Origin: Leptothoe kymatousa TAU-MAC 1615
Lineage (GTDB): Bacteria > Cyanobacteriota > Cyanobacteriia > Phormidesmidales > Phormidesmidaceae
Assembly (NCBI RefSeq): GCF_018739865.1
Contig: NZ_JADOER010000004.1
Location: forward strand, 1,064,157 to 1,128,156
Length of the DNA: 64,000 nucleotides
Reading direction: 5' to 3'
This document shows, one piece after another, positions 37,567-48,902 of the stretch (position 1 is its first letter; the number at the start of each line of letters is the position of its first letter). The notes under the pieces were generated by a model, which ran no database searches, was not told the DNA's origin, and worked only from the letters and a program-made list of their open reading frames with translations. Position numbers and translations under genes: made by a program.

Positions 37567-38712
37567 ATGGGACAGCATCGGGACAGTAAACGAATTGGCT
37601 TGCTCACCAGCGGTGGTGACTGTGCAGGGTTAAATGCCGCGCTACGGGCGGTTGTGCATCGAGCCCATAGCTATGGATGGGATGTTTTGGGCATTTCTCG
37701 GGCCACCCAAGGTTTAATGGCCCGCCCGCCGCAATATGTGGAATTTGATATCTCTAGCACCCACAATCTGTTGTTGGCGGGGGGCACAGTGTTGGGAACA
37801 ACGAACAAGGGCAATCCCTTCGATTTTCCATTGCCCGATGGATCTACTTGCGATCGCTCCCAGGAGATTATTGATGGCTATCACCTACTGGGTTTAGATG
37901 CCCTGATCGGCATAGGCGGCGATGGCAGCATGGCCATACTACGCCGTTTGGCCCAACAGGGAGGGCTAAATCTCGTAGGTATTCCCAAAACCATCGACAA
38001 CGATTTGGGGTCTACGGAGCGTTCCATTGGCTTTGATACGGCGGTGAATATTGCCACCGAAGCCTTAGACCGTCTGCACTTTACGGCGGCTAGCCATTCT
38101 CGGGTCATGATCTTAGAGGTGATGGGCCGAGATGCGGGCCATATTGCCCTGAATGCAGGCATTGCTGGCGGTGCGGACATTGTTCTAATTCCTGAAATTC
38201 CCTATAGCATCGAGAGTATTTGCCAGACCATTAAGGGACTCAAGCGTAATTTTGCCACCATCATTGTGGCGGAGGCGGTGTGTACCGAATCCGGAGAAAA
38301 AGTAACCCAAACCAACCGGTTAGGCCAATGTCGCCTGGGGGGAATTGGAGAATATTTAGCGGAGCAAATCACTGAAAGTATTGGCGCGGAAACCCGAGTA
38401 ACGGTCTTGGGCCATGTGCAGCGGGGCGGGACGCCGTCTCCGTTGGATCGGGTTTTGGCCACCACCTTTGGGGTGGAGGCTGTGGATCTGATTGCGGCCG
38501 AAAAGTACGACCATATGGTGAGTTGGCAAAATCGCCAGGTGGTTCATGTGCCCATTGCTGATGCGATCGCAGAATATCGTGCCGTCAACCCGGCCGATAC
38601 GCTGGTGAAAACTGCCCGGGGCATGGGCATTTGCCTAGGGGATGTTGCCTGTCAGGTGGTTGACCAGCAGGTGCGATGCGACGGCCAGGTGTTAGCCCAG
38701 GCAAGAGTCTAA
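37567..38712 (+). CDS. pfkA: 6-phosphofructokinase
   Basis: This 381-residue protein starts at the ATG at 37567. It phosphorylates fructose 6-phosphate at C1 in glycolysis. Motifs: GLLTSGGDCAGLNAALRAVV, GTTNKGNPF, IGIGGDGSMAIL, GIPKTIDNDLGSTERSIGFDTA (catalytic Asp in TIDND) and EVMGRDAGHIAL. The residue after GGD is Gly120, which in known enzymes favours ATP as donor, whereas Lys141 in PKTIDND is the residue usual in pyrophosphate-dependent or group III enzymes. The Gly/Lys combination occurs in ATP-dependent PfkA of the mixed group. It is longer than E. coli PfkA (320) and is a single gene. Confidence 0.93.
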   Translation: MGQHRDSKRIGLLTSGGDCAGLNAALRAVVHRAHSYGWDVLGISRATQGLMARPPQYVEFDISSTHNLLLAGGTVLGTTNKGNPFDFPLPDGSTCDRSQEIIDGYHLLGLDALIGIGGDGSMAILRRLAQQGGLNLVGIPKTIDNDLGSTERSIGFDTAVNIATEALDRLHFTAASHSRVMILEVMGRDAGHIALNAGIAGGADIVLIPEIPYSIESICQTIKGLKRNFATIIVAEAVCTESGEKVTQTNRLGQCRLGGIGEYLAEQITESIGAETRVTVLGHVQRGGTPSPLDRVLATTFGVEAVDLIAAEKYDHMVSWQNRQVVHVPIADAIAEYRAVNPADTLVKTARGMGICLGDVACQVVDQQVRCDGQVLAQARV

Positions 38713-38921
38713 GGTCGTGGAGAAGTCGGTGGCCCTAATTCCTGCTGCCGGCTGCCTAATTCTCTATGAATGTAAGCTTCTGTTAACCAATGGCATGATT
38801 GCGCAGTTCACGATAGACAATGACCCAAAGGCATTGGGGCGATCTCGGCTGTTTCTGCGTGCCACGTACTCAGTTCTAATCCCGTTGTTAATGCCAGCTT
38901 TTTGTCTGTCAGCACGTATGC

Positions 38922-39554
38922 GTGCCCTATTTTATGCAGTTTGCTAAATCGTTGACGTCTTCCCAAGATGATACCCAAGAAAAAATCCTTGGGGCGGCCC
39001 AGCGATTATTTGCCCGGCGTGGCTATGGGGGGACCACCACTCGCGATTTAGCCCAGGCCGCAGGGGTGGCAGAAGGTACCTTATTTCGCCACTTTGAGAA
39101 TAAAAAAGCCATTTTAGTGGAGGTGGCCACCCGTGGATGGGTCGACCTGCTTACGGAGCTACTCACGGAGCTGAGTGAAATGGCAAACTACAAGGCGATT
39201 GCCAAGGTCATGCGCAAACGCATGCTCAATCTGTCTGCCAATACCGACATGCTCCGGGTGTGCTTTATGGAGGCTCAGTTCCATCCGGAGTTGAGGGAGC
39301 GGGTGCAGGCCGAGGTGATTGAAAAAATGACCGATGTGGCCGAGGCCTTTTTCCAAACGGCGATGGATCGCGGCACCTACCGCCCGATGAATCCCCGGGT
39401 GGTGGCTCGAATTTTCCTAGGGATGTTTACCATTGCTGGGTTTAGCCAGGTCACCCTAGCCGATGAGGCCAGTTCAGCCCAGGATATGAAAGAACTGGCG
39501 GAAACCCTGGCCGATATTTTTCTCAACGGTGTGTTGGCCAATGTTGATGCCTAG
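38922..39554 (+). CDS. TetR/AcrR family transcriptional regulator
   Basis: This 210-residue protein has an N-terminal TetR helix-turn-helix: TQEKILGAAQRLFARRGYGG, TTTRDLAQAAGVAEGTLFRH, FENKKAILVEV (about residues 18-65). The C-terminal ligand or dimer domain (about 80-205) is all-helical and not diagnostic. The start is uncertain: in-frame ATGs at 38922 and 38934 precede the conserved region by about 15 residues. It represses its target until an unknown small ligand binds, by family. The last four bases overlap the end of the convergent HugZ-like gene. Confidence 0.88.
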   Translation: MPYFMQFAKSLTSSQDDTQEKILGAAQRLFARRGYGGTTTRDLAQAAGVAEGTLFRHFENKKAILVEVATRGWVDLLTELLTELSEMANYKAIAKVMRKRMLNLSANTDMLRVCFMEAQFHPELRERVQAEVIEKMTDVAEAFFQTAMDRGTYRPMNPRVVARIFLGMFTIAGFSQVTLADEASSAQDMKELAETLADIFLNGVLANVDA

Positions 39555-40042
39555 TTTTGTCGGCGTCCTTCCAACTGATTCAAATCCTCTTTGTTGACCC
39601 GGTAAGCGGCGCCAAAGCCCAGCACGAATTGTCCCGTTTGGGGTTTTAGACAGAACAGTTGAAAATCTGACAGCTCTTTCATCATTCCAATGACGGGGCC
39701 AAACTGCTGTTCAAATCGCTGGATGAGTCCATGCCATTGTGCGGTCTCGCGGGGGAGCGCTTCGGCGGTGCATTCGTAGGTGAGACGCCGTCGGGCAAAA
39801 ATTTCCTTGGTGGCCGCTTCGTCTTCTAGCATGAGCACGCTGGCTCGACCGGTTTGTTTTAGGTTGTCGGTGTGGGCCGATAATCCACTGATGTAAATAT
39901 AAATGGATTTATCCGGATCTATTAAAAAAGGGGCATAGCTTGCTTGGGGAATGCCGTCGCTGCTGGCCGTGCTTAAGACGATACTGCGAAATTTACTCGG
40001 AAACGCTTGATAAAGCTCAGTGACACGATTGAGATCAGCCAT
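39551..40042 (-). CDS. HugZ-like / pyridoxamine 5'-phosphate oxidase-fold protein
   Basis: This 163-residue protein has a split-barrel flavin/heme-binding fold. SIVLSTASSDGIPQASYAPF begins the barrel, SIYIYISGLSAHTDNLKQTG and ASVLMLEDEA continue it, and the C-terminus GQFVLGFGAAYRVNKEDL is the pattern of the HugZ heme-utilisation branch. HugZ proteins degrade heme, but close cyanobacterial relatives lack direct proof and the distinctive C-terminal His cannot be identified here. It is cytoplasmic. It is divergent from ridA, with about 160 bases between. Confidence 0.82.
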   Translation of the reverse strand: MADLNRVTELYQAFPSKFRSIVLSTASSDGIPQASYAPFLIDPDKSIYIYISGLSAHTDNLKQTGRASVLMLEDEAATKEIFARRRLTYECTAEALPRETAQWHGLIQRFEQQFGPVIGMMKELSDFQLFCLKPQTGQFVLGFGAAYRVNKEDLNQLEGRRQN

Positions 40043-40203
40043 GGTTTTAGCGATCGCAACAACTCAATACAAGTCGTTGCTGATGGTTAGAGATGAACGA
40101 ATTTACAGACGGGCCCCATAGACCCCACACCTGCAAATGAAATCATAGTTTGGATCAGCAACGCCCGGTAAAATACTCAAGCTAGTTAACTAAACACAAC
40201 ACC

Positions 40204-40593
40204 ATGGTTCGTCGCATTATTCAAACCGAAAGTGCTCCTGCCCCCGTTGGCCCTTACAACCAAGCCATCGTCGCTGCCGGTGAAATGGTTTTCGCCTCTG
40301 GCCAAATTGCCCTGGATCCTAAAAACGGGACCCTCGTGGGCGAAGGTGACGTCGCTGCTCAAACAAAACAATGCCTAGATAACCTGAGCGCCGTTTTAGC
40401 CGCTGCCGGGGCCACCATGGAGAATGTGGTGAAAACATCGGTTTTCTTAAAAGATATGAATGACTTCGCCACTATGAATGGCGTATATGCCACCTACTTT
40501 GATGAAGCAACTGCCCCTGCCCGTGCCTGTGTTGAAGTAGCCCGCTTACCCAAAGACGTTTTAGTCGAAGTTGAATGTATTGCCGTACTGTAA
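40204..40593 (+). CDS. ridA: RidA family enamine/imine deaminase
   Basis: This 129-residue protein matches RidA (YjgF/UK114) over its whole length: GPYNQAIVAAGEMVFASGQI, the central VVKTSVFLKDMNDFATMN, and the C-terminal signature PARACVEVARLPKDVLVEVECIAVL with the conserved Arg that binds substrate carboxylate. It hydrolyses reactive 2-aminoacrylate and similar enamines released by PLP enzymes. The start ATG at 40204 is the first codon. A candidate promoter for the next transcript begins three bases after its stop, so the downstream leader and DAHP synthase gene appear to form a separate unit. Confidence 0.95.
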   Translation: MVRRIIQTESAPAPVGPYNQAIVAAGEMVFASGQIALDPKNGTLVGEGDVAAQTKQCLDNLSAVLAAAGATMENVVKTSVFLKDMNDFATMNGVYATYFDEATAPARACVEVARLPKDVLVEVECIAVL

Positions 40594-40595
40594 AG

Positions 40596-40624
40596 TTGAC
40601 GATTCGATTTTGGCGCGCTAACGT
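40596..40624 (+). promoter_or_regulatory. Candidate promoter of the attenuator leader
   Basis: TTGACG (40596-40601) and TAACGT (40619-40624) are separated by exactly 17 bases, placing a start near 40631-40633. That is about 30 bases before the first leader peptide. The -35 is nearly consensus; the -10 keeps the key T1, A2 and T6 positions. Confidence 0.45.
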
Positions 40625-40662
40625 ACACATATCGACGCAAAAACGTTTCTAAGTTTTTACCC

Positions 40663-40713
40663 ATGCAGTCCAAGTTTTTTCACTTTTGGTTTATCCAGGT
40701 TCACCGGCATTGA
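40663..40713 (+). CDS. Leader peptide 1, Phe/Trp-rich (attenuator 1)
   Basis: The ATG at 40663 opens MQSKFFHFWFIQVHRH, with a stop at 40711-40713. Four Phe codons and one Trp codon occur in 16 positions, before the segment that takes part in the competing helices. There is no clear Shine-Dalgarno, which is not rare in cyanobacteria. In such leaders the ribosome's pace at the control codons decides which helix forms. Because U-rich DNA encodes Phe by chance, its reality rests on the matching RNA architecture rather than on composition alone. Confidence 0.55.
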   Translation: MQSKFFHFWFIQVHRH

Positions 40714-40776
40714 ACCCTGGCGTTAGCATGGGAAGCCGGTGAACCGCAGAGTGCAAGCTCTGCGGTTTTGTTTTTT
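40695..40776 (+). promoter_or_regulatory. Attenuator 1: protector, antiterminator and terminator helices
   Basis: Three competing helices are visible. The protector pairs 40695-40703 (CCAGGTTCA) with 40711-40720 (one bulged C). The antiterminator pairs 40698-40708 (GGTTCACCGGC) perfectly with 40735-40745. The terminator pairs 40742-40751 (AACCGCAGAG) with 40758-40767, followed by TTGTTTTTT. The first two share their left arm, and the second and third share 40742-40745. The left arm overlaps the last codons of leader peptide 1. A ribosome that finishes would mask it and allow the terminator; one stalled on the Phe codons would leave it free to form the antiterminator. Confidence 0.65.
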
Positions 40777-40917
40777 CTACCTACCTCTTACGTTCATGAT
40801 TGTTTGCTACAGCTGGCAATTTACATTTTTCTTTTTTACGCCACCACCGGGTAGGTAGCGTTAGTTTTACTGTACTGACTTGCCCGGAACCTCTACAGGT
40901 TGCGGGCTTTTTGTTTT
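40777..40917 (+). promoter_or_regulatory. Attenuator 2: protector, antiterminator and terminator helices
   Basis: Protector: 40777-40785 (CTACCTACC) pairs perfectly with 40850-40858. Antiterminator: 40847-40856 (CCGGGTAGGT) pairs over ten positions, two of them G-U, with 40878-40887. Terminator: 40882-40892 (GCCCGGAACCT) pairs with 40897-40907 (one G/G mismatch, loop CTAC) and is followed by TTTTTGTTTT. The antiterminator uses six bases of the terminator's left arm. A ribosome at the leader stop codon (40856) would cover the middle segment and allow termination; one stalled at the Phe run would leave it free to pair with 40878-40887. The DAHP synthase ATG follows 25 bases after the T-tract. 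Confidence 0.68.
40796..40858 (+). CDS. Leader peptide 2, Phe-rich (attenuator 2)
   Basis: The ATG at 40796 begins a 20-codon ORF, MIVCYSWQ then FTFFFFT and PPPGR, with the stop at 40856-40858. Five Phe (four consecutive, codons 40826-40837), one Tyr and one Trp make it resemble the E. coli pheA leader peptide. The stop codon lies inside the segment shared by the protector and antiterminator helices. It has no strong ribosome site. It starts 21 bases after the first terminator's T-tract, so its transcript must read through attenuator 1. Confidence 0.6.
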   Translation: MIVCYSWQFTFFFFTPPPGR

Positions 40918-40941
40918 CTACTATTTCCTCTTTCTAGACCC

Positions 40942-41811
40942 ATGAATGACGCCAAACTTGTTACTAAAACCCATCTAGATCACACCAGTGAAATTGCCAT
41001 CACGCCAACTATTTCCGTGGGTGGCAACGAGCTATTCATCGTGGGTGGCCCCTGTTCCATCGAGAGTATGGCCCAGATGGAAACCATTGCCCAAGCCCTG
41101 CGGCAGGCACCGGTGCAAGCTCTGCGGGGCGGCATCTATAAGCCTCGCACCTCTCCCTATGCCTTCCAAGGCATTGGCGATGTGGGGCTAGACATTCTGG
41201 CCGCTATCCAACAACGCCATGGGCTGCCCATCATTACTGAGGTGATGGCTATCCATCAAATTGATAAGCTGGCCGCCCATGCCGATGTGTTGCAGGTGGG
41301 CAGTCGCAATATGCAAAACTTTGATTTGTTAAAAGCATTGGGTTCTGTGGATAAACCCATTCTCCTCAAACGAGGACTAGCGGCCACGGTAAATGAATTT
41401 GTGATGGCGGCAGAATATATCGCCAGCCACGGTAATACCAACATTATTCTTTGTGAGCGCGGCATTCGTAGCTTTGATAGCTATACGCGCAATGTTTTAG
41501 ATCTTGGCGCCGTGGTTGCCCTCAAGCAACTTACCCACTTACCTGTGCTCGTAGATCCTAGCCATGCTACGGGCAAACGCGAATTGGTTGCGCCCTTAGC
41601 GCGAGCGGCCATTGCCGCTGGGGCAGACGGACTCATGATTGAGTGCCATCCGCAGCCGGAAAAATCTATCAGTGATGCTAGACAAACCATTGATTTGGAT
41701 GCCATGCAATCACTTATCAATAGCTTAAAACCATTGGCTCAAGCGGTTGGACGCTCCATTGGGGAAGTTGTCCCGGCGGCCCATAGCCCCATGCCATCCA
41801 TCTCGATGTGA
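40942..41811 (+). CDS. aroF: 3-deoxy-7-phosphoheptulonate (DAHP) synthase, class I-beta type
   Basis: 289 residues from the ATG at 40942; the frame is open to 40900, but those codons lie inside the terminator stem. It condenses phosphoenolpyruvate and erythrose 4-phosphate, the first step of the shikimate pathway to Phe, Tyr and Trp. Motifs are VGGPCSIESMAQM, RGGIYKPRTSPYAFQGIG (substrate loop), VGSRNMQNF, LLKRGLAATVNEF, CERGIRSFDSYTRNVLDL, PVLVDPSHATGKRELV (metal His) and GLMIECHPQPEKSISDA, all typical of the short Bacillus-type enzyme without an ACT or mutase domain. So this form may lack strong allosteric feedback, which would make leader control by aromatic amino acids sensible. A hairpin follows at 41847-41887. 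Confidence 0.95.
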   Translation: MNDAKLVTKTHLDHTSEIAITPTISVGGNELFIVGGPCSIESMAQMETIAQALRQAPVQALRGGIYKPRTSPYAFQGIGDVGLDILAAIQQRHGLPIITEVMAIHQIDKLAAHADVLQVGSRNMQNFDLLKALGSVDKPILLKRGLAATVNEFVMAAEYIASHGNTNIILCERGIRSFDSYTRNVLDLGAVVALKQLTHLPVLVDPSHATGKRELVAPLARAAIAAGADGLMIECHPQPEKSISDARQTIDLDAMQSLINSLKPLAQAVGRSIGEVVPAAHSPMPSISM

Positions 41812-41846
41812 TGGGCGTTCTCCCCCATCATCCATGCTATGAATTA

Positions 41847-41887
41847 GCCGCTCCGTAGTTTCCCCACTAGCGAAACTACAGAGCGGC
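41847..41887 (+). terminator. Long hairpin after aroF
   Basis: GCCGCTC-C-GTAGTTTC pairs with GAAACTAC-A-GAGCGGC: 15 pairs and one C/A mismatch around a 9-base loop. It starts 36 bases after the aroF stop. The following TTATGTATG is only weakly T-rich. Confidence 0.55.
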
Positions 41888-42554
41888 TTATGTATGCAAT
41901 TGCAGCCGTTGCCGATATGGATAGGCAACAAGTAAGCCAACTTTTTACGTATGGAGGTGTGGCAGATTAAACCATTGCAAAAACCAGCAATGCCAATTCA
42001 ACTAATTTAAATTTATGACCCGGCGTAACCTTGCTTAAGTAAAGCTATCTTTAAGCTTTCTAAAAGTCTGGGTTTAGCCTATGGAATAATACGCAGGATT
42101 AGCCAGGTATAGAATACAGTTTTTTGATAATCCGAGGGTCAAAGATTAAACCTAGGATAAACACCTGCTTCAGCGCAAACATTCGATAGCATTCCATTGT
42201 CTACAACCTATCGAAGCCATTCGAGGGTGTTCTTATTCTTGAACTTTGAAGAGTCTTGTTGACAACTGTTCTGATTCCTGGGGAACCCAGTTGTTGATTA
42301 AGGTACGGGGGTGTGTAGCTGTTACTGTTTTTCAAGACTTTATCATTCATGCTGTTGCTGATTGGGAGGCTGAATGGGTCTGTAAGCATAGCTAATTGCC
42401 TGAATCTTACAGATAATGCCATTCCACGGATCAGCAATGCCTAATTCACATTCAGGTTAAAACTGAGGGTTTGGGCTCCAGTTCGAGCTACCTATTTAAG
42501 TAAGATTCTGATGCATTATCAGAAAAAATTATTTTATTTTTGGAGATGCCTGAG
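41888..42554. other. Long gene-free region upstream of the first hybrid kinase
   Basis: About 660 bases, AT-rich, with no ORF that resembles a protein. A small palindrome, CTGGG-GAA-CCCAG, is at 42279-42291. CACATTCAGGTTAAAAC at 42447-42463 matches 32359-32375 in 16 of 17 positions. The kinase promoter should be here, but I cannot pinpoint it. Confidence 0.4.
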
Positions 42555-45374
42555 GTGAAACGCAAGCATTTTGTAAGGGGGATACCTGCTGTCGCAACAC
42601 TCTCAGTCTTAGCAATTCTAGGTCTGAAAAATTTTGCTGTTGATTTCGATCAATATAGAAGCTATAGCGCTCTAATTTCAGATCAGTTGGTCAATGAGGC
42701 AGCTGTTCAGCTATCGCTGCAAAATATTCGCTACACGATTTCTCAAAATGACCAGTCATTAAATGTCGCTCTCCTAGAAGCGGAAAAAGTTCAGACGCAA
42801 CTAACTGCGCAAATTCCGCCGTCAGTTTCAGCCAATGATAGAAATCGATTAGAACGGCAGCTAGAGTTTAATACTGAACTCTTAGCGGAAAAACGTCAGC
42901 TGATTGAAACCCTTGAAAAGCACCACGCAGAGGTGAGAAAAGCCCTAGACCAAGAAGCCAACTTATTGGAAGGACTCAATGGCAATCTCCGGCTAGAAGT
43001 GGAGGCATTGCTAGATGACTTATCGCTCTATGCGGTTACCAGTAACGAGCAACTGATTGTTGATATCAATACAAAACTGAGACGTTTAGAAAACAGATTG
43101 GGGCCTTCGGCGACCCAGAGGCAGATGACCCAGTCGGCTCAAATGATTTTGATCAATAAGCCTGTGGCAGACCAGTTGGTGGGCCAGGTGTTTGATTTAC
43201 CGTTAACTAATAATATTCGAGCGCTAGAAAAACAGTTCGCCGATATTCAACAAACGACCCGAACCCGCGTAGAACTATATCGCAGCTTTATTTATATTTT
43301 GCTGTTTGTCAGTTTAGGGGTGGTCTCTTTTTGGGTTATCAATCGCCTACGCAGCTCTAGCCAGCATACTGTTAAAGTGCTGGAGAGTATTACCGATGCC
43401 TTTATTGCCGTTGATCGTCAATGGTCGATTACCTACGTCAACGCCCAGGCTGCAGATATTCTCAAGCGAGATATTTCCGGATTACTTGAACAAAATTTTC
43501 TGAAAGTTTTGCCAGAATCTTTAGCAAAACGTTTTACTGAGCAATACCATGATGCCGTTGCCAAAAAAATAGCGGTGATTAGTTTTGAAGCCTACTATGA
43601 ACCCACCCGGCGTTGGCTGATGATTCGGGGCTATCCCGGTATTGAGGGACTATCGATTTTTTGGCAAGACATTACCGAACGCAAACAGGCGGAAAAGAAG
43701 CTACTAGAGCTAAACCGAGACCTTGATGGTCGGGTTAAAAATCGCACAGCTCAATTGGCCAGTGCCATGGAAGAGGCTGAATCAGCTCGGGTCAAAGCCG
43801 AAGATGCCAACCGTTCTAAGAGTGAGTTTTTGGCCAATATGAGCCACGAGTTGCGGACGCCTTTGAATGCCATCATTGGCTACAGTGAAATGTTGGAGGA
43901 AGACGTTACTAGCATTGGTGAAGACGACTTTGTGCCCGATTTGAAAAAGATTCAAGGGGCCGGTAAACATCTCCTTGGTTTGATCAATTCGGTGCTCGAC
44001 CTATCGAAGATTGAAGCCGGTCGTATGGAGCTATTTTTAGAAGATATTTCTATTCAAACAATTACCAAAGATATTGTTGGCACGATTCAGCCCCTAGTGC
44101 AAAGAAATGGCAATAAACTGTTTGTGTCTTGTCCGGACGATATTGGCACAATTTATGCCGATCAGGTGAAGTTGCGACAGAGTTTAATTAATTTGTTGAG
44201 CAATGCTTGTAAGTTTACGGAAAATGGTGAAATCACGTTGACCATTAAGCCGACTAGCATTACGACCCAGGCAGGGACTCAGGAGAATTCTTTGCAGTTT
44301 GTGGTGGCTGATACGGGTATTGGCATGACACCTGAGCAAATGAGTAAAGTGTTTCAGGCGTTTACCCAGGCCGATACCTCCACAACCCGTAAATATGGGG
44401 GAACTGGTTTAGGCTTAACCATCACCAAGCAGTTTATCTCTATGATGGGAGGTGATGTTTCTGTGGATAGTGTGCCTGGCGAAGGGACATCCTTTGCGAT
44501 TACGATTCCCAGAACTGTCCATGCCCATAGCTCCTCCGAAGACACCTTTTTTGCGCCACCATTGCCCCTAAGCGATCGGGCCGCTGTTTCTGCTCTATAT
44601 GAAATATCAGGACAGTCGTCGGAAAAGACGGTTTTGCTCATCGTCGTCGATCAGCACACCCGCGATCGCTTACAGATTTGGTTAAACGATGCCGGGTATA
44701 AAGTCGTCTGCGCTATGGATAAAAAGCAGGCGATTGCCCTTGCCCAAGAACTACTGCCCGACGCCATTTTGCTGGATGGCATGATTCCACAAAAGTCTAG
44801 AAACTTGCTGGTGGAGAGATTCAGAGCCAAAGCGCCCCTAGCTCAGATCCCGATAATTTTGCTGTCAACAGCGGAAACGTCGGCTCAAGAGGAGCATTTT
44901 GGCATTGATGATTCTCTGGATCGACCGCTTAAGCCCATGGAGGTACTAAATGTACTAGGTGCCCATTTACCCAAACCAGCAGGGCCTAAGGTGCTAGTGG
45001 TGGAAGATGATTTGAATGCGCGGGAGATTTTAGGACGATTGTTGCAACAGGCGGACTGGACCGTGGTTCTCGCCGCCAGTGGACCCCAAGCATTTGACTA
45101 TCTTCAGCACACCATGCCCGATGTGATTGTGCTGGATTTGATGATGCCTGGCATGGATGGATTTGAATTTGTGCGGCTTTTACATCAATCGCCTAGGTGG
45201 AGCACTATTCCGATCATTGTTGTAACTGCAAAAACCTTAACGGCCAAAGACCAGCAACGTTTGAAGGGGGTTGTCCGGGTCTATCAGAAGGCTGATTTCA
45301 ACCGCCAAGAATTACTCAGCGAAGTGAGGTCGATGATAGCTTCTCGGGTAAATAGTACGCCCATGGCTAGCTGA
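42555..45374 (+). CDS. Hybrid histidine kinase A (helical sensor-PAS-HisKA-HATPase-REC-REC)
   Basis: About 940 residues. GGAG at 42542-42545 is nine bases before a GTG at 42555 but directly abuts the ATG at 42546, so the GTG is preferred. An N-terminal TM ([13 protein letters not shown]) and a second near 250-270 ([18 protein letters not shown]) flank a long all-helical, coiled-coil periplasmic domain resembling DAHL-type sensors. A PAS domain follows ([16 protein letters not shown]), then [20 protein letters not shown], and an ATPase with NLLSNACKF and GTGLGLTIT. Receiver 1 is degenerate ([24 protein letters not shown] with Arg for the usual Lys). Receiver 2 is canonical ([28 protein letters not shown]). 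It is the paralogue and tandem neighbour of the next kinase. Confidence 0.92.
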
Positions 45375-46028: not shown

Positions 46029-48902
46029 GTGAATCGAGACTCTCTACTTCAAGGGACAGGGGTAGCCGTTGCTTTTCTACTTCTAACTGTCTTAGGGATT
46101 AAGGGCAAATCCGTTAATGTTAGCCAGTATCAACGGTACGCAGATTTAATATCGAGCCAAGTTGAAAGTGATACTGAAGTTGAGCTGGCCTTGCTCAAAG
46201 AGCGCTACACGATTTTGAGAAATGATGAACCGCTTGAGGAAGCTCTGGCGGAAGAGCTAGCTATCCAGGAAGAGCTAGCTAGGGATGTACCTGCTTTTGT
46301 TCCTAAAGACGACCAGGTTAAATTGAAAAATTTGATCAGTCGTGATGCCCAATTTCTCCAGGAAAAAACGGAATTGGTAAACCAATTTCAGGAGACCAAT
46401 GGGGAACTACAAAATGCTCTGGTACAGTTGCCTAGCTTAGTCAATGAATTAAAAAATACCAGTGACGCGGATCTGGAGAAGCTGATTGATGATGTTTTGA
46501 TTTACATCATGGCCACCGACGAGCAGCTGGTGTCCAGCATTGAAAACGAGCTAAAAGTTGTTAAAGCCAAGCTCAACGCTGGGGAGTTCTCCAGCGCTAA
46601 GGATGTCGCTCAGGTGGTTCAGCTCTCCCAGATGGTGCTGGATAATAAACCGGTTACTGATGCGTTAGTCGATCAGGTGCTTAATTTGCCCCTAACTCAA
46701 AACATTCGTGAGTTAGAGAATGTTTTTGACCAATCTAGTCGAGCCGCATTTAGGCAAGCTGCCCTATACCGCAACCTTGCCTATTTAGTGGCCTTGTCCC
46801 TGATTGGTGTGATTGCCTATACCCTCGTGGCTCGACTGCGGCAGTCCACACAGCGTACCACCAGCGTCCTGGAAAATATTACCGATGCGTTTGTGGCGGT
46901 GGATCGTGGCTGGAAGGTCACTTACGTTAATGCCCAGGCGGCTGAAGTTTTGAAGCGTAATATTCAAGGGCTGCTAGAGCAAGACTTTTGGAAGATTTTT
47001 CCAGAGTCATTGGGTCTGCGCTATCAGCAGCAATATCGTCGGGCCATGGCTGAGCAGACGGTGGTGAGTTTTGAGACTTACTATGCGCCGACCCAACGGT
47101 GGTTGCAAGTGCGAGGCTATCCGGGGCGTGATGGTCTATCTCTGTTTTTGCAGGACGTGACAGAGCGTAAGCAGGCAGAAGAGCAGCTAATGGAATTAAA
47201 CCGTGACTTGGATAGCCGAGTGCAGGACCGCACCACCAAGTTAATGAAGGCGATGGAGGAGGCCGAGGAAGCCCGGGTTAAGGCGGAAGATGCTAACCGT
47301 TCTAAGAGTGAGTTCTTGGCTAATATGAGCCACGAGCTGCGCACGCCCCTAAATGCCATTATTGGTTACAGCGAAATGCTGGAGGAAGAGGCGACGGATG
47401 TGGGTGAGGAAGATTTTGTTCCGGATTTGCAAAAAATCCAAGGGGCTGGCAAACACCTGTTAGGGCTGATTAATTCGGTGCTAGATCTCTCCAAGATTGA
47501 AGCGGGACGGATGGAGCTATTCCTCGAAGAGTTCTCGATTAAAGGGTTGGTGGATGATATTGCCGGGACGATTACGCCGGTGGCCCATAAAAATAATAAT
47601 CACCTGTCGGTCTTTTGTCCTGCAGACATTGGTAGTTTGCATGCGGATCAAACGAAGCTGCGCCAAAGCTTGTTTAATCTATTGAGCAATGCCTGTAAGT
47701 TCACTGAGAATGGTGACATTACGTTGACTGTGGAAGAGGTCTCTACGGTCGATGAGGAGATCTACGATGGTCCTTGGCTCCGTTTTATTGTCAGTGACAC
47801 TGGCATTGGCATGAAGGACGATCAGATCGAAAAGATTTTCGATGCGTTTACCCAGGCGGATGCATCGACGACTCGAAAATATGGTGGCACTGGATTGGGG
47901 CTAGCGATTACCAAACAGTTTATCAATATGATGGGCGGTGATATTTCGGTCGAAAGTGTTAAGGGGCAGGGAACTACATTTTCTCTGTTGATTCCGCAGA
48001 CGGTGAAATCGTTGAATCCTAAGGGCAAGACATTTTTTGCCCCTGCGCTTGCGACTGAAGGGGACGCGCCGATAGTGTCCAGTGGTTTGGTGAACCAGTC
48101 GAGCCAAAAAACGATTTTGGTGATTGATGATGACCAGGATGCGCGCGAGATTTTGCGTCGTTCCCTTGATGAAGCGGGGTATAACGTAGTCTGCGCCTCT
48201 AATGGGGAACAGGGATTGGCCCTGGCGGAAGAATTATTGCCAGATGCGATCACGTTGGATGTGATGATGCCGCAAATGGATGGCTGGTCAGTGCTAAGAC
48301 AGCTCAAAGAAAAGCCGACTGTTGCGGATATTCCTGTGATTCTGTTGTCGATTGTAGATGATCGGCCCATGGGGCATAGTCTAGGTGCTGCAGACTATTT
48401 AACCAAGCCTATCGATCGTCGACGTTTACTGGGGGTATTGGAGGCCCACCTTTCGGATCAGCCATCACCTACGATTTTGGTGGTGGAGGATGATGTTAAT
48501 GCCCGTGAAATTATGGGGCGGTTTTTGCAACGTCAGGATTGGACAGTGGACTTGGCGTCTAATGGACGCGAAGCCCTGCAATATCTAGATGGAACGACGC
48601 CGGATTTGATTGTGTTGGATCTGATGATGCCTGAAATAGATGGGTTTGAATTTATTCAGATGTTGCGGCAAAATCCTGACTGGCAAGATATTCCTGTGAT
48701 TGTGGTGACAGCCAAGGCTTTAACAGCTACTGATCAGCAGCAATTGGAAGGTGTGGCAAGGGTGTATCAAAAGGCCGATCTCAATCGCCAAGAGTTGCTA
48801 AGCGAGCTGCAGGCGGTGGTGTCGGGGAAGACGGTTTCGATTCCTAATAGTGCGACAGATACAGTTTCTAGTACGGATAGGGTGTCCAGTGCATCTGATT
48901 AA
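46029..48902 (+). CDS. Hybrid histidine kinase B (helical sensor-PAS-HisKA-HATPase-REC-REC)
   Basis: 957 residues from the GTG at 46029, chosen because AGGAGG lies seven bases before it and only one base before the alternative ATG at 46023. The architecture matches kinase A: TM1 ([15 protein letters not shown]), a helical coiled-coil periplasmic domain, TM2 near 250 ([18 protein letters not shown]), PAS ([16 protein letters not shown]), phospho-acceptor [15 protein letters not shown] and ATPase GTGLGLAIT. Both receivers here keep all key residues ([52 protein letters not shown]). It probably sends phosphate through its receivers to the REC-REC-pseudokinase protein encoded 39 bases downstream. 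Confidence 0.93.

Follow-up and report, generated by a model that had tools for sequence, protein, structure and literature searches.

Two putative leader-peptide attenuators in series upstream of the DAHP synthase gene aroF in cyanobacteria

In a window of 64,000 nucleotides from Leptothoe kymatousa TAU-MAC 1615 (the whole stretch of DNA that was analyzed, numbered from its first letter), the gap between ridA and aroF holds what its predicted anatomy identifies as two complete leader-peptide attenuators in tandem. A sigma-70-like promoter, TTGACG-N17-TAACGT (40596 to 40624), lies downstream of ridA and is followed by two cassettes, each made up of a mini-ORF, an antiterminator and an intrinsic terminator, and then by aroF (40942 to 41811), with all of these features on the forward strand. 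This layout had been proposed in a sequence-only reading of the window and its coordinates held in our analyses. The promoter motif was kept in 86 of 89 orthologous leaders versus 25 of 1780 shuffled sequences, and was not among the matches of a strict promoter scan of the window. Both halves of the leader folded better than shuffles, with z values of -3.7 for the cassette 1 half and -2.5 for the cassette 2 half.

The aroF product catalyzes the opening step of phenylalanine, tyrosine and tryptophan biosynthesis. It is a DAHP synthase of 289 aa with the catalytic domain only, as had been inferred from the sequence alone: it matched PF00793 (E 3.4e-77) and, above cut-off, TIGR01361 and PRK08673, and had no match to the ferredoxin-like regulatory domain PF18152. 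Among the nearest solved chains are 3pg8 (272 aa) and the full-length 1rzm (338 aa), which have the same enzyme name. Downstream of aroF there is a large sensor histidine kinase gene (42540 to 45374), and a second kinase-like sequence at ~46400 to 47000 has stretches alike to it; the two are perhaps a tandem pair.

Cassette 1 begins with the 16-codon mini-ORF1 (40663 to 40713, MQSKFFHFWFIQVHRH and a stop codon). The 5' arm of its antiterminator (region 2, GGTTCACCGGC, 40698 to 40708) is inside the end of mini-ORF1 and forms 11 perfect pairs with the 3' arm (region 3, GCCGGTGAACC, 40735 to 40745), which overlaps the foot of the terminator hairpin (40742 to 40767; arms AACCGCAGAG, 40742 to 40751, and CTCTGCGGTT, 40758 to 40767). 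That hairpin was identified by a terminator scan, is supported by covariation and has a U-run at 40766 to 40776. Cassette 2 has the same order: the 20-codon mini-ORF2 (40796 to 40858, MIVCYSWQFTFFFFTPPPGR and a stop codon), an antiterminator 5' arm at the mini-ORF2 end (region 2, CCGGGTAG, 40847 to 40854), a 3' arm (region 3, TTGCCCGG, 40880 to 40887) that is also part of the terminator, the terminator hairpin itself (40882 to 40907; arms GCCCGGAACCT, 40882 to 40892, and AGGTTGCGGGC, 40897 to 40907), again supported by covariation, and a U-run at 40908 to 40917. Calculated local energies of the antiterminator and the terminator were -28.2 and -18.2 kcal/mol in cassette 1 and -17.6 and -16.8 kcal/mol in cassette 2. 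Separately, the sequence CCCATGC at the mini-ORF1 start codon (40660 to 40666) has its complement, GCATGGG, within the antiterminator loop (40726 to 40732), and pairing of the two could close the start codon; this 7-mer match was found only in six genomes, all of the genus, which includes Leptolyngbya sp. PCC 7375, Leptolyngbya sp. Heron Island J and Adonisia turfae.

In order to determine how widely this arrangement is kept, aroF orthologues were taken from 59 relatives and from 390 genomes drawn evenly across the class, and the upstream regions of 108 orthologues were examined with an automatic caller that required an aromatic mini-ORF and a terminator 17 to 38 nt from the mini-ORF stop. Exactly two cassettes were called in 100 of the 108 regions. 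Inspection of the other eight by eye revealed both cassettes in five (in G347 with an out-of-frame second stop codon), which brings the number of orthologues with the tandem to 105; the single-cassette leaders are those of G295, with cassette 1 alone, and of G324 and G232, with cassette 2 alone. The same caller applied to 1080 dinucleotide shuffles gave no case of two cassettes and seven of one, and elsewhere in the 64 kb window it had one match, within a coding region. The presence of tandem cassettes before aroF is far beyond chance, and conservation of the mini-ORFs in relatives, which had been suggested as a check on the original proposal, is thereby established.

The peptides encoded by the mini-ORFs have a common character. 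Aromatic runs were present in both mini-ORFs of all 100 called leaders, with consensus cores of (Y/F)F(Y/F)FWF and W(F)(F/Y)GF(Y/F)FW, and aromatic codons were in excess in frame: cassette 1 had 587, versus 331 and 158 in the two other frames, and cassette 2 had 654, versus 263 and 205. The last aromatic codon was exactly six codons ahead of the stop in 63% of mini-ORF1 and 80% of mini-ORF2 sequences. Only the aromatic run and the codons inside region 2 are conserved; the N-terminal residues vary freely. The leader had initially been described as Phe-rich, but Phe, Tyr and Trp are each present in 95 to 100% of the 100 leaders in both peptides, so that the sensor, as judged from its codons, is pan-aromatic rather than Phe-specific.

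An alternative is that each stage answers to its own cue, mainly Phe in one and Tyr and Trp in the other, so that the leader integrates separate amino acids. The window itself could be taken to suggest this, as Tyr is absent from mini-ORF1 (four Phe codons and one Trp) and occurs once in mini-ORF2, beside five Phe codons and one Trp, and there is a precedent in the tandem leader of mgtCBR, which senses two different signals (PMC3641672). Across the 100 leaders, however, the make-up of the cassette 1 and cassette 2 peptides was the same (F 19 and 20%, Y 11 and 10%, W 7 and 7%), and Phe, Tyr and Trp occurred together in at least 95% of each. We therefore consider separate cues unlikely, and the earlier suggestion that the second stage adds a Tyr/Trp cue has to be set aside. 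Given their shared pan-aromatic composition the two stages look redundant, with the caveat that the signals themselves are unmeasured.

Covariation of the RNA helices was assessed on an alignment of 71 non-redundant leaders. In a blind scan of column pairs, the antiterminator and the terminator were the top two helices in each cassette. In cassette 1, the 13-bp 2:3 helix of the antiterminator had 90.8% of cells paired and 89 both-side changes (shuffled mean 29), and the terminator had 97.9% paired and 27 both-side changes (shuffled mean 3.8). The corresponding values for cassette 2 were 92.1% and 37 for the 8-bp antiterminator helix (shuffled mean 14.3) and 88.3% and 63 for the terminator (shuffled mean 22.3). 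For all four helices both the pairing and the covariation score exceeded those of all 500 shuffles, and a slide of the partner by one column abolished pairing. The aligned leaders are related, and the shuffle counts are accordingly not strict probabilities; in cassette 2, moreover, the distinct pair types did not exceed those of shuffles, and its support is thus the number of compensatory cells. Covariation therefore extends to both of the overlapping, and hence mutually exclusive, structures in both cassettes, and the compensatory changes that the sequence-only reading had named as a check were found. The protector helix that it placed in each cassette fared less well: the local hairpin of cassette 1 (-8.8 kcal/mol) is pairable in 89% of cells without covariation, and the 9-bp complement that would enclose mini-ORF2 (CTACCTACC, 40777 to 40785, with GGTAGGTAG, 40850 to 40858) was absent in the genus relatives examined.

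These data also bear on whether only one stage matters, with the other a relic of duplication. That three of the 108 leaders (G295, G324 and G232) have a single cassette is compatible with such a history, as is the weak, full-length recognition of each cassette by the covariance model of the other, which is no more than a hint that the two cassettes arose by duplication. Decay would be expected of a relic, though, and covariation and geometry have been kept in both stages over class-wide divergence, which leads us to regard this possibility as very unlikely.

We give scant credence to the idea that a metabolite riboswitch or a protein-bound leader drives both terminators, with the mini-ORFs as no more than incidental T-rich spacers. 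Conservation of the helices is strong, and unstructured T-rich spacers would be kept under that scheme too, but it leaves the in-frame excess of aromatic codons, the exchanges among F, Y and W and the fixed distance to the stop codon without explanation. Apart from the switch arms and the ORF, the aligned leaders had no conserved core, and a cmscan search of positions 38000 to 43000 of the window with Rfam, at E values up to 5, gave no match to Phe_leader, Trp_leader or any other attenuator family, nor to the T-box model. It is barely credible that the mini-ORFs are functional small proteins and the terminators serve only to trim ridA read-through or to set constitutive levels, for even if leader peptides can act in trans (as reported for peTrpL of Sinorhizobium; PMC7298713), only the aromatic run and the region 2 codons are conserved here while N-terminal residues are free, mutually exclusive antiterminators covary, and the promoter is downstream of ridA.

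To relate ribosome position to structure, the RNA downstream of a ribosome placed at each codon was folded for 100 leaders; the results are predictions, not measurements. For a ribosome on codons -12 to -8, 2:3 pairs were predicted in 96 to 100% of leaders before region 4 exists; the figure was 87 to 99% at codon -7, and no leader formed these pairs with the ribosome at the stop. The mean equilibrium probability of the cassette 1 terminator foot rose in parallel from ~0.3 with the ribosome at codons -11 to -9 to 0.9 with the ribosome at the stop. The switch point of the window leader falls between codons 10 and 11 of cassette 1 and between codons 14 and 15 of cassette 2, in each case directly past the last Phe codon of the peptide, and the stall positions agree with the predicted switch point. 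Thus, in silico, the antiterminator arm is exposed while the ribosome is at the regulatory codons and covered once it is at the stop codon. Two points weigh against this picture. In the window the cassette 2 terminator had an equilibrium probability of at least 0.94 at every ribosome codon except the first two, which means that the antiterminator must form first. The cassette 1 antiterminator overlaps the terminator foot only, by 4 to 5 pairs, and hence a 6-bp hairpin can persist.

In view of the anatomy, conservation, covariation, geometry and gene association that we observed, we think it very probable that two ribosome-mediated transcription attenuators in series control aroF. There are no RNA or ribosome data, and the coupling, the sensing of tRNA, actual termination, the multiplicative logic and read-through caused by a stalled ribosome are inferred only. 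We envisage that RNA polymerase would start near 40630 and transcribe mini-ORF1, which would then be translated by a ribosome. Under a shortage of charged Phe, Tyr or Trp tRNA, the ribosome would stall on the aromatic run and leave region 2 free to pair with region 3; the terminator foot could then not close and transcription would go on. When charged tRNAs are ample, the ribosome would reach the stop codon and cover region 2, and termination would be expected near 40776. A polymerase that had passed the first stage would face the same test at mini-ORF2, with its terminator near 40917, and aroF would be transcribed only with read-through at both stages. As both stages must read through, the response would be the product of two read-through chances, and two stages may leak less and respond more steeply than a single stage.

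The pair may also supply feedback for an enzyme without an allosteric domain. The other DAHP synthase copy in the class carries PF18152, and an aromatic mini-ORF with a terminator was absent upstream of this paralogue in 11 of 12 loci examined. In the remaining one (G054:C15, locus L134), the paralogue with the regulatory domain is preceded by just one aromatic mini-ORF, MKNSQFWYSFTFRSATGVRHRSG, together with a strong terminator; by its predicted features this leader is a one-stage attenuator. No such leader was found for pheA and trpE of the genome of L. kymatousa itself. That attenuation replaces allosteric feedback on AroF is an inference and has not been demonstrated.

The distribution of the cassettes was assessed with covariance models of cassette 1 (R1) and cassette 2 (R2), which matched 129 and 133 of the 390 genomes, respectively. 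Both cassettes were present in 126, with five genomes that had weak R2 matches only left out, and matches were essentially confined to the region upstream of aroF. It is important to note that most of the matched genomes also trained the models, which makes the class counts partly circular. Weak R2 matches in G393, G355, G218, G121, G073 and G306 (E ~1e-3 to 1e-2) lacked an aromatic mini-ORF and were attributed to chance. Cassette 1 was the only one found in G045 and G295, and in G136 (locus L160, G136:C48) it survives upstream of a decayed aroF copy; G131 has both cassettes, with aroF cut by the contig end. A phylum-wide search with aroF returned matches from the same class only, and a search of a plasmid collection returned none. 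Loci of Obscuribacterales MAGs, taken from a separate collection, were outside the training set: L144 and L146 matched both models, L143, a cut locus, had both cassettes in partial form, and L149, L152 and L153 matched R1. Inspection of L149 by eye identified a second mini-ORF, also with consecutive Tyr codons (YYYY in both peptides), a shift that fits selection for aromatic codons in general. The single cassette of L153 has a peptide, MRYYGFYFWFTEVRPG, that mixes traits of both cassette types and is perhaps an intermediate. In the aroF tree all Melainabacteria sequences grouped (99/96) and were weakly joined (90/92) to two cyanobacterial lineages, which does not distinguish descent from transfer.

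Taken as a whole, we are somewhat inclined to view the leader as a class-wide cyanobacterial regulator in which two redundant pan-aromatic, ribosome-sensing terminators in series form a multiplicative (squared) gate, in place of allosteric feedback on a DAHP synthase that has no regulatory domain, the pair being old enough to be common with the non-photosynthetic Obscuribacterales, by descent or transfer. Ribosome-mediated attenuation needs a ribosome close behind RNA polymerase, and a covarying, class-wide attenuator therefore implies transcription–translation coupling at the aroF locus in cyanobacteria, a point now open to experiment on one defined leader. A series of two stages for one signal is also a natural test of what two attenuators gain over one, with the single-stage variants of G295, G324 and G232 as natural controls. 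The leader also matters for metabolic engineering of aromatic compounds in cyanobacteria, as it would place a limit on the entry step.

Ribosome-mediated attenuation has long been known. The aroF leader resembles the trp, pheA and his attenuators of Escherichia coli in its leader ORF rich in codons for pathway products, its exclusive antiterminator and terminator, and its logic of stall versus stop, but differs in having two full units in series on one gene, in mixing codons of all three aromatic amino acids, and in being of other sequence, in another phylum and without an Rfam match. Tandem glycine riboswitches and tandem T-boxes also place two sensing units in series and are thought to sharpen the response; in these, unlike the aroF leader, the RNA binds the ligand or tRNA directly and there is no translated leader peptide. 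We know of no same-signal attenuator pair elsewhere. The closest parallel in layout is mgtCBR of Salmonella, where two short ORFs in one leader each have their own attenuator (Lee and Groisman 2012, PMC3641672). Its stages respond to ATP and proline, one of them thus sensing an amino acid, and act additively, an arrangement that its authors call a singular example (PMC3641672). In contrast to the different signals of mgtCBR, the aroF stages carry the same aromatic codons, their signals being unmeasured, and the pair precedes a biosynthetic gene, class-wide. A single stage has been proposed upstream of aroF in Acholeplasma, where the uORFC-13-1 motif has one uORF, a U-run/Phe codon and a terminator; it has 24 representatives, from Acholeplasma and environmental sequences only, and its firm feature is a single Phe codon (PMC8632094), whereas the cyanobacterial leader has two stages. 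A survey by a group that studies attenuation concluded that there were no reliable data on the mechanism in cyanobacteria (Korolev et al. 2016, PMC4833913). The sequence-only reading knew of no similar case in cyanobacteria, a view in line with the open-access literature, in which we found no description of a cyanobacterial attenuator pair (most subscription journals were outside its scope). To our knowledge, this is the first well-supported case of leader-peptide attenuation in cyanobacteria: it is classical in its logic, and what is new is the phylum, the arrangement in series and the pan-aromatic sensing.
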